IMG/VR virus record: IMGVR_UViG_3300031673_000224
Location: 1-36,864 of that record
DNA length: 36,864 bases
Origin: a virus
Reading direction: 5' to 3' (one strand)
Position 1 is the first letter of the stretch. Every line of letters begins with the position of its first letter. The notes under the pieces are model-generated. The model was not told the origin of the DNA, made no database searches, and saw nothing but the letters and a program-made list of their open reading frames with translations. Positions 6,639 through 9,371 of the stretch are shown here, piece by piece. A program made the position numbers and the translations under genes.

Positions 6639-9371
6639 GTGGCGAAAACCGCTGTCCAAAAAACCGAGCAACCGGAAATAAGCCAGGCCGACCTTACAAT
6701 ACTTGAGAACTACTCGAACTATTTTAAGTTCGTCTGGACATGGGCCTTTCAACAATTTGTGCAATGCAGACATTCGCTAATCGCCCTTTTTACCGGAAAC
6801 CAGGCGATGAAAACCGCGTCCTGTGCATACAACTATGTACTGCGAATTCACGGTTGGCACCCGGTTCCCGAGAAAAACGTACTCTATTTTGAGTGTCCGG
6901 ATAAGCATTATTTCAACATAGTGACGCTACCCAAAGATTGGATATGCCCCCAGTGCAAGCAGGAGATAAAGATTCACGAGAGAGGATGCAGGATATTCAG
7001 GTTTGCTTCGGAAGTCCTACCGGGGGAGAAGGCGACCACCGGAGATGCGAGTTCATCTGCGGAAGTCAAGAATTCCGTATATCCCGAATTCAAGAAATGG
7101 CTCCCCCCGTTTCTGATGAAAAGGGATATCACGTTTCGCAATATGGCGATGATTATTGCCGACCCCAATAGGGGCAAGGTATTATGTGGTCAGGAATACA
7201 AGGGCGATGATATCATAGTGGAGTTTGTGGCCTACAGCCAGACAGTGCAGAGCACGGCGGGAAAACAGCGATTGAGCGTTTGGGAGGATGAGGAACCGAA
7301 TTGGGATTTTCATGAGGAACAACTGCCGAGATTGATGGCCGAGGATGGGGATCTGCTCTTGTCATTAACAGCCGCTAATAGAATATGTTTTGATATAGAG
7401 ACAGAAATATTAACTCAGAATGGTTGGGTTAATGATAATACAGTTAAGACAGGGCAATTAGCCTTAACATTCAACACTGAAACAAAGGATTATGAATGGC
7501 AACCCATTGAAGGAATGTTTAAAGAATATACTTATGATGATAAAATGATTTCCTTAAAATGTAAGGGGTTTGATGCTTTAGTAACACCTGAGCATAAATG
7601 GCCCATTGTTCATAAAATTAATGGAAAGATAGAACGAAGACAGACTAAAGATTTAAAAACTCATCATAAGATTTTTAGAGCAGCACAAAATACAATAGAA
7701 CATTCGCAAGTATATGAAGATTGGTTTGTAGAGTTGGTTGGATGGTTCTTGACAGATGGAGCAATGCCTACAGAGAGAAGGCAAATTTTTATTCATCAAT
7801 CTTGGACAGCCAATAAAGATAAATGTTTAAAGATTAAAAAAATCGTATCTAACATAAACAATGTAAAAAATAAGCATAATAGATATATCAACCATCCAGG
7901 AGAGGGTGGAGAAGGAATTAATTACACATGGACTATTAATGGAAAAGAAGTTGATTTGTTGCGAAGTTTATTTCCCACAAGAGAATTAACATCAGAATTT
8001 GTTTTCTCTCTTACAAAAAAACAACAAAGTTTATTGTATGAAACCCTTATTGATGGTGATGGATGTCGATCTGGTGTTACAGACAGATTTAGATGCACAA
8101 GAAAGACTCTCGATGCTTTTCATATTTTGTGTATTTTATTGGGAAGAAAATCAACAGAAGAATCAGAGATTACAAGTCATGGTGCTATCGTATATAGGGC
8201 GAATATACAACGATTAAATTCAAAACGGTATAAACCTTTTACCCATGTATGCAGTTTAAAAAGAGAATATGTAGATTATAAAGGCATAATATGGTGCCCT
8301 ACAGTTGCTAAAAACAATACTCTTGTTGCAAAGCGGAATGGCACAATTTACATCACATCCAATTCATGGACGTATGACGAGATATTTGAACGCGCCCAGG
8401 TTTATATCCGGACTAAGGCTGTTTGTGACTTCTTGGAAACCTCCGATTACAAACCCGAACAGATTGAATATACCGAAAGCCCGAATTCTATCGCGGTAAT
8501 CCAAGCGGCCACCGATGATAACCCTACCCTCACCAAAGAAGCGATAGAAAACCAGATGAGCCAGTATGACGACCCAGATGTTGTCGCTACCAGGCGATTC
8601 GGCGTACACAAGCAGGTCAAGGGTAGGATATTCAAAGGGTTTGATTACTCGATCCACATGATTGACAAGGACACATATTTCCCCTATGGCATACCCCACT
8701 TTTGGACGCATGGCAGGGGGATAGACTATCATCCCCAGACCCCGTGGGCGTGTGGCTGTATGTCTCTGTCATCGGAGAACGAGGCCGTTATATGGTGCGA
8801 TTACAATCCCTCGCCCGACAAACTCATCACCAAGGAAATATGCTACAACTTCGCTTTGATGGGAAAGGACTACAAGTTCATCCTCAATCTCATAGATCCC
8901 TTGTCCGAGGGCATAAAGAAAGATAAGATAACCGTACTCGATGATATCAACCGGGAATTTCACGAACTCAAACGGGAAGGTATTGGGACCGGGGCGTACT
9001 GGCAGACATGGGACACCAAGGGCGAAAAGGGCCGGGATGAGATAAAGAAGAGGCTGAAAAACTCCAGGGAGTGCGGGAGACCGTTCAACAACAAAGTTAC
9101 CAAGGATGGGAGGACAATCTTTCTGCCCACCCTATGGATTCTCAATGATTGCAAGACTGCGGCCAAGATGATGAGGATGTGGCGGTGGGAAGAGTTTGTA
9201 GCGGAGAAAGACAGGATTCAGAGGGGCGAGAAGAATAAGGCGCAGGATAAATGGAGTCATTTTAATATGGTGGTGGAGGCCCTGTTCAAGAACCCTGCCT
9301 TCAGGCCCAGGAGGGAAAGGCCGGAACGCCGTGTAGATAAACCGAAACGATATTTTCAAGGGAGGAGATGA
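6639..9371 (+). CDS. Terminase large subunit (ATPase/nuclease) interrupted by an intein
   Basis: 910 aa precursor; removing the 326-aa intein leaves 584 aa, normal for TerL. Walker A is G53-N-Q-A-M-K-T59. Walker B is VWEDEE with Asp217/Glu218. The coupling-motif region follows (LSLTAAN, residues 242-248) and the intein sits just after it. The nuclease domain has RGIDYHP with Asp696 and LIDPLS with Asp753. A zinc-knuckle insertion (Cys86, Cys103, Cys106) lies in the ATPase domain. The enzyme drives DNA into the prohead through the portal (11297) and cuts it. GTG is the only upstream start, with a weak site. The end (YFQGRR) encodes the Shine-Dalgarno of the next gene. Confidence 0.92.
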   Translation: MAKTAVQKTEQPEISQADLTILENYSNYFKFVWTWAFQQFVQCRHSLIALFTGNQAMKTASCAYNYVLRIHGWHPVPEKNVLYFECPDKHYFNIVTLPKDWICPQCKQEIKIHERGCRIFRFASEVLPGEKATTGDASSSAEVKNSVYPEFKKWLPPFLMKRDITFRNMAMIIADPNRGKVLCGQEYKGDDIIVEFVAYSQTVQSTAGKQRLSVWEDEEPNWDFHEEQLPRLMAEDGDLLLSLTAANRICFDIETEILTQNGWVNDNTVKTGQLALTFNTETKDYEWQPIEGMFKEYTYDDKMISLKCKGFDALVTPEHKWPIVHKINGKIERRQTKDLKTHHKIFRAAQNTIEHSQVYEDWFVELVGWFLTDGAMPTERRQIFIHQSWTANKDKCLKIKKIVSNINNVKNKHNRYINHPGEGGEGINYTWTINGKEVDLLRSLFPTRELTSEFVFSLTKKQQSLLYETLIDGDGCRSGVTDRFRCTRKTLDAFHILCILLGRKSTEESEITSHGAIVYRANIQRLNSKRYKPFTHVCSLKREYVDYKGIIWCPTVAKNNTLVAKRNGTIYITSNSWTYDEIFERAQVYIRTKAVCDFLETSDYKPEQIEYTESPNSIAVIQAATDDNPTLTKEAIENQMSQYDDPDVVATRRFGVHKQVKGRIFKGFDYSIHMIDKDTYFPYGIPHFWTHGRGIDYHPQTPWACGCMSLSSENEAVIWCDYNPSPDKLITKEICYNFALMGKDYKFILNLIDPLSEGIKKDKITVLDDINREFHELKREGIGTGAYWQTWDTKGEKGRDEIKKRLKNSRECGRPFNNKVTKDGRTIFLPTLWILNDCKTAAKMMRMWRWEEFVAEKDRIQRGEKNKAQDKWSHFNMVVEALFKNPAFRPRRERPERRVDKPKRYFQGRR
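7386..8363 (+). mobile_element. LAGLIDADG-containing intein in terminase
   Basis: Residues 250-575 of the precursor, 326 aa. Block A: CFDIETEILTQNGW with Cys1. Block B: VTPEHKW (Thr67, His70, Trp72 in intein numbering). Two LAGLIDADG helices: LVGWFLTDG and LYETLIDGDG. Block F: IIWCPTV (Cys304). Block G: ITSN followed by extein Ser576. The penultimate residue is Ser, not His. Trp at B:12, Cys at F:4 and Thr at G:5 make the WCT triad of class 3 inteins, although Cys1 is kept. Base composition is clearly more AT-rich than the exteins on both sides, pointing to recent arrival. Splicing would rejoin NRI to SWTYDEIF. Confidence 0.92.

Follow-up and report, generated by a model that had tools for sequence, protein, structure and literature searches.

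A phage terminase intein with Cys1 and the W-C-T triplet belongs to a large Cys1 family and bears on the origin of class 3 inteins

In the definition of class 3 given for 1701 class 3 inteins, position 1 holds no Cys, Ser or Thr (PMC7891396). The intein in the terminase gene of IMG/VR virus record IMGVR_UViG_3300031673_000224 carries the class 3 triplet of Trp at B:12, Cys at F:4 and Thr at G:5 and yet begins with Cys1. Which of its two cysteines starts splicing, and does it stand between class 1 and class 3, as a first-pass annotation of the sequence had proposed? The question was approached through the 36,864-nucleotide stretch formed by positions 1 to 36,864 of that record, here called the window, and through comparison with phage genomes and other IMG/VR loci.

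The host gene and the insertion site

The intein interrupts a terminase-large-subunit-like ORF (Table 1). The assignment to the large terminases rests on weak homology to TerL, the C-extein giving a weak tblastn match to phage records annotated as terminase large subunit (27% identity, E 1e-5), and on VWEDEE and the C-motif, which were read directly; the three ATPase motifs were named by their resemblance to those of terminase ATPases. The host ORF matches no terminase family in Pfam, NCBIfam or PHROG, and the whole 910-residue protein has no Pfam or NCBIfam match. The only PHROG match of the intein-bearing protein is to a thymidylate synthase family, the profile of which appears to include an intein. 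In the P-loop, the window and locus L103 have Met (TGNQAMKT in the window) where most relatives have Gly (TGNQxGKT). Elsewhere in the window, a 258-residue ORF (1418-2194) gives a match to PHROG families of replication initiation proteins (E 4e-23).

Table 1. Coordinates of the terminase gene, its intein and the residues discussed; positions are those of the window unless a locus is named
Feature	Position	Strand	Remarks
Terminase-large-subunit-like ORF hosting the intein	6639..9371	+	910 aa, GTG start
N-extein, 249 aa	6639..7385	+	carries P-loop, Walker B and C-motif
P-loop TGNQAMKT	6792-6815	+	named by resemblance
Walker B LSVWEDEE	7272-7295	+	named by resemblance
C-motif SLTAAN	7362-7379	+	named by resemblance
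Intein, 326 aa, Cys1 to Asn326	7386..8363	+	ORF residues 250-575; in frame
Cys1 (A:1), likely initiating nucleophile	7386..7388	+	invariant in 76/76 nonredundant family members
Block B TPEHKW: Thr67 (B:7), His70 (B:10), Trp72 (B:12)	7584..7601	+	
Asp124, acidic residue, first LAGLIDADG helix (block C, GWFLTDG)	7755..7757	+	Asp or Glu in relatives
Asp225, acidic residue, second LAGLIDADG helix (block E, LIDGDG)	8058..8060	+	helix in model
Cys304 (F:4) in IIWCPTV	8295..8297	+	
Thr324 (G:5), Ser325 (G:6), Asn326 (G:7)	8355..8363	+	
C-extein, 335 aa	8364..9371	+	first residue Ser+1
Region of other-site intein, locus L102	945-2804		near Walker B
Region of other-site intein, locus L115	1884-3500		P-loop

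Eighteen IMG/VR loci match the C-extein, one of them being the window's own virus; loci L001, L020 and L100 also represent that virus (8978/8978 bases shared with the window) and furnish no independent evidence. The first-pass annotation had suggested a search for intein-free relatives, and these exist: in most of the other loci, among them L101, L103, L104 and L106, the homologues of the two exteins abut with nothing between them. Locus L101, whose C-extein is 62% identical to that of the window, reads SLTPANYI/TWTYDE and L104 reads LTPASYI/SWTYDE, compared with SLTAANRI/C...N/SWTYDE in the window. Because the intein-free relatives run straight across the site, both junctions are fixed, and the terminase intein stands where it had been placed: its translation begins with CFDIETEIL, ends with GTIYITSN and is followed by Ser. 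By these alignments, the intein interrupts a phage large terminase just 3' of its ATPase C-motif.

In a tree of the C-exteins, the window and the intein-bearing locus L110 lie in different supported parts, with empty sites around both. This scatter among empty sites makes the presence of the intein sporadic, which fits a mobile element. The identical insertion point is used by the inteins of L110 and L021, and these two and the window intein group together in the tree (96/78). They share the terminase site and 33-35% identity with the window intein but end in Ser-Gly-Asn, with Ser at G:5, and have Thr at +1. Two more relatives of the same terminase carry class 1 inteins that look unrelated and sit at other points, close to Walker B (L102) and within the P-loop (L115); one terminase family thus holds inteins at three ATPase-domain sites and of at least two types.

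The intein DNA had been described as AT-rich and, on that account, as probably a recent arrival. The composition is as described (GC 32% versus 48-49% in the flanking exteins; GC3 22% versus 57-63%). However, the L110 intein is likewise AT-rich relative to its own flanks (25% versus 34%), so that composition alone does not prove a recent arrival, and although the spread is sporadic, inteins at the same site differ at about two thirds of their residues, which leaves recent acquisition unsupported.

The nuclease and the predicted fold

The acidic residues of the two LAGLIDADG helices are retained, as had been claimed: Asp124 and Asp225 each lie in a helix of the predicted structure, and Asp225 is invariant in an alignment of 15 phage inteins. 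The AlphaFold2 model (38 rows; pLDDT 91.8, pTM 0.91) was compared with the PDB by Foldseek. The best matches were the full LAGLIDADG inteins TliVMA, PI-PfuI and PI-SceI, with I-DmoI also found, and the best match of the size of a splicing domain was the intein AceL NrdHF (TM 0.80 by target length). Pfam LAGLIDADG_3 matches 13 of 38 relatives and not the window protein itself. It is plausible, given the conserved residues, that the nuclease is active.

A large family of phage inteins with Cys1

Trp72, Cys304 and Thr324 occupy B:12, F:4 and G:5 both by block numbering and in an alignment with 14 phage inteins, in which the window columns match blocks B, F and G. The intein starts with Cys1 and ends in Ser325-Asn326, as read directly from the translation. 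The triplet is that of class 3, but a Cys stands at position 1, and the intein falls outside the canonical class 3 clade (see below). The class 1 features are present: a Cys at position 1 that is kept by selection (Cys1), TxxH in block B (Thr67-Pro-Glu-His70), and a C-terminal Asn (Asn326) followed by Ser at +1.

A tblastn search with the window intein matched 133 phage records; these matches and the confident structural model put the identification far above chance. In the set of 15 aligned phage inteins, at 21-30% identity to the window, Cys1, His70, Cys304 and Asn326 are invariant; the host genes encode portal, TerL, DNA polymerase, thymidylate synthase, methylase and other proteins. Four Cys1-bearing LAGLIDADG inteins that end in VWCPT...TGN, from Gordonia phage Woes (portal), GMA3 (TerL), GX15bay (portal) and DP SC_2 (DNA polymerase), share with the window intein the length, Cys1, His70, Trp72, Cys304, Thr324, Asn326 and the nuclease motifs at 22-30% identity over the full length. 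They differ from it in having Gly rather than Ser as the penultimate residue and in lacking the one extra residue that follows WCPTV in the window.

Two scans of IMG/VR that used the block F motif as their key, combined with the phage set, yielded 76 nonredundant members (<70% identity). The scans selected on the WCP motif and left position 1, B:12 and G:5 unconstrained. All 76 members have Cys1, at a mean identity of about 29%; B:12 is Trp in 61 and G:5 is Thr in 70, and Cys1 occurs together with the complete triplet in 58. Thr at B:7, the class 1 TxxH, was present in 57 of the 62 members examined. Cys at F:4 was found in 76/76, a figure biased by the scan and by the rule used to find the intein ends, and in 15/15 of the phage set, which is free of that bias. 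One intein found without the end-finding rule, L120 from a Rheinheimera phage, retains Cys1 and carries Gly in place of the F:4 Cys. At G:6, 75 of the 76 have Gly and only the window has Ser. Scans with the L110 and L096 inteins as queries added almost no members.

The mixed class 1/class 3 signature pointed out in the first-pass annotation therefore holds residue for residue, but its supposed unusualness does not. As far as sequences can tell, the residue mix is usual in a large family of phage inteins; the rare feature of the window intein is its penultimate Ser (1/76).

Several other variants came to light. An apparent Gln replaces the terminal Asn in L079, L080, L091, L092 and L183 (VTGQ/T and similar), with Cys1 kept, and some phage proteins carry two inteins of the Cys1 family in one ORF (L058, L079, L099). 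An apparent member without Cys1, L199, was discarded because its start had been misplaced by one residue. Matches without Cys1 on Streptomyces plasmids were also rejected as class 3 relatives, being free-standing remnants without a terminal Asn. Two of these (L017 601-1596 and L018 601-1596) end in WTGE or WTGS, and in L018 the block F Cys is lost as well (WHP); both resemble remnants of inteins or nucleases that have been reused.

Separation from canonical class 3 inteins

Class 3 phage inteins were gathered by way of the Cas4 and TerL types and with a scan that selected on their nuclease motifs and not on splicing residues. The profile of the recovered set matches the solved class 3 DnaB1 inteins (E 1e-36). 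Among its 79 nonredundant members, for which the end-finding rule required a Cys in block F, all 79 have Thr at G:5, 78 have His at G:6, and one has Cys at the first position, which is approximate to one residue. Block B is mostly DxxHxW, in contrast to TxxH in the window family. Canonical class 3 inteins (Msm and Mch DnaB1, the phage TerL and Cas4 types) thus resemble the window intein in the triplet and the Hint fold but differ from it in having no conserved Cys1, a DxxHLW block B and a Pro-Thr-His-Asn end.

In trees of the splicing domains, the canonical class 3 inteins form a branch of their own (97 and 98/92; 100/100 without the trait columns). The profile scores agree: the window intein obtains 125 bits with its own family (leave-one-out) versus 21 with canonical class 3, and eight class 3 references obtain 81-140 bits with their own kind versus 10-22 with the window family. 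A mycobacteriophage RDF/phosphoesterase intein (L119, RidgeCB gp51), at 85 bits with the family profile, is much more distant but of the same extended family; it agrees with the window intein in Cys1, the F:4 Cys, the G:5 Thr and the absence of a penultimate His, and differs from it in Val at B:12 and Gly at G:6. Its host gene is the same as that of the Bethlehem gp51 RDF intein, which is treated as class 1, has been shown to splice and has a penultimate Gly that supports fast splicing (PMC5050341).

The idea of an intermediate between class 1 and class 3 finds no support in these comparisons, since the same mix is the rule in a family with invariant Cys1 that tree and profile set apart from class 3.

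The relationship of AceL NrdHF

Mutagenesis and a crystal structure established that AceL NrdHF, which has Ala1 and uses Cys124, splices by the class 3 route, and its authors noted class-1-like behaviour at B:7 and B:12 (PMC7891396). Like the window intein and its family, AceL NrdHF (PDB 6zgq) has a Thr-x-Asn end without His and Cys at F:4, and its block B, SxxHxM, is like that of some Cys1 members. Unlike the window intein, it has Ala1, is split, lacks a LAGLIDADG domain and has a proven class 3 mechanism (PMC7891396). The split intein was found in five IMG/VR contigs (L132-L136), and in L132 and L133 both halves could be read, with a further ORF between them.

The window-family profile finds AceL NrdHF with an E of 2e-10 (1.6e-7 with the splicing blocks only), as its best PDB match, whereas the canonical class 3 profile does not list it at E up to 1. 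With the native halves from the phage contigs, AceL NrdHF scores 32 bits with the Cys1 family (maximum of 200 shuffles, 10.2) and 6.9 bits with canonical class 3, which is shuffle level (maximum 6.3). The N-terminal half supplies most of the 32 bits, and the C-terminal half, although it aligns, contributes next to nothing. AceL NrdHF lies closest in the tree to the Cys1-bearing phiTE NrdB intein (85/53), which also resides in a ribonucleotide reductase beta gene, at a different site. A placement of AceL NrdHF next to canonical class 3 was not rejected by the AU test (p 0.15, or 0.30 when trait columns and long outgroups were removed). On these alignments, AceL NrdHF is probably related to the Cys1 family rather than to canonical class 3.

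The splicing route

The window insert is most likely a mobile class 1 intein with a LAGLIDADG nuclease in which Cys1 starts splicing and Cys304 assists. In this route, Cys1 would attack the peptide bond of the preceding Ile in an N-S acyl shift aided by Thr67 and His70, the thioester would be handed to Ser+1, cyclisation of Asn326 would release the intein, and the exteins would then join. Cys304, at a position that is Asp or Cys in class 1, would most likely assist rather than initiate; Trp72 probably belongs to the core, and the likely role of Thr324 is to position His70. The invariance of Cys1 argues for its use, and the class 1 route is best supported because Cys1 is invariant across about 70% mean divergence, TxxH is present and the family branches apart from class 3. 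The L120 intein, with Cys1 and a Gly at F:4, also speaks for class 1, as does the membership in the extended family of L119, the counterpart of the spliced Bethlehem intein. Against it count the retention of Cys at F:4 in nearly all family members found and the fact that AceL NrdHF, a proven class 3 intein, is the most similar solved structure by sequence profile and splicing-domain fold. Across inteins in general, Asp is the commonest residue at F:4, followed by Cys (PMC4031507), B:12 may be Trp in class 1 inteins (PMC7891396), and the penultimate His of phage class 1 inteins is often replaced by Gly, Lys or Ser (PMC5050341). The literature consulted contained no mutant of any WCP-type member. 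Tori and Perler reportedly tested in 2011 W-C-T inteins that keep Ser1 or Cys1, namely Catera Gp206, Nocardioides TOPRIM and Tfu2914.

That either cysteine, Cys1 or Cys304, suffices to start splicing is unlikely. The window intein does have both cysteines, His70 and Thr324, and AceL NrdHF, with Ala1 and a Met-Cys-Thr triplet, lends this idea its scores with the Cys1 family, its nearness to phiTE NrdB and the class-1-like positions reported by its authors. Under it, however, invariance of Cys1 in the whole family would not be expected, AceL NrdHF beside canonical class 3 survives the AU test, and grafting W-C-T onto the class 1 gp41-1 intein resulted in essentially no splicing (PMC7664689). That the intein is of class 3 and its Cys1 an unused vestige is very improbable: the triplet is there, and L121, a phage intein of the canonical class 3 kind, likewise has a Cys at, or adjoining, its first residue, but an unused residue would drift, tree and profile place the window intein outside canonical class 3, and it lacks the C-terminal Pro-Thr-His-Asn typical of most class 3 inteins. 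That the intein is degenerate and has lost splicing, as Ser at the otherwise Gly-occupied G:6 and the degenerate free-standing relatives on Streptomyces plasmids might suggest, is hardly credible, since the frame is open, all catalytic residues and both LAGLIDADG acids are kept, the host gene is intact and needed by the phage, and Ser at G:6 occurs in a working intein, class 2 KlbA (PMC4031507).

Implications for the origin of class 3 inteins

By itself, the window intein is ordinary. A large phage family combines the W-C-T triplet with an invariant Cys1, so that the triplet alone is not diagnostic of class 3. The sequence relationship of AceL NrdHF suggests that class 3 chemistry arose a second time, from Cys1 inteins like those of this family, which would explain the class-1-like traits noted by its authors and keeps alive a weak form of the takeover by Cys F:4 after loss of Cys1. 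The stronger proposal, that the Cys1-bearing W-C-T phage inteins are double-nucleophile inteins, that class 3 arose independently at least once, in AceL NrdHF, and that Cys304 would start splicing of the window intein without Cys1, is improbable as a whole. Class 3 inteins have been stated to be monophyletic (PMC3196547, PMC4031507); if AceL NrdHF belongs to the Cys1 family, they are not. The family thus offers a way to test the origin of class 3, with one relative, L120, in which Cys F:4 is gone and Cys1 remains, and a probable relative, AceL NrdHF, in which Cys1 is gone and Cys F:4 remains.
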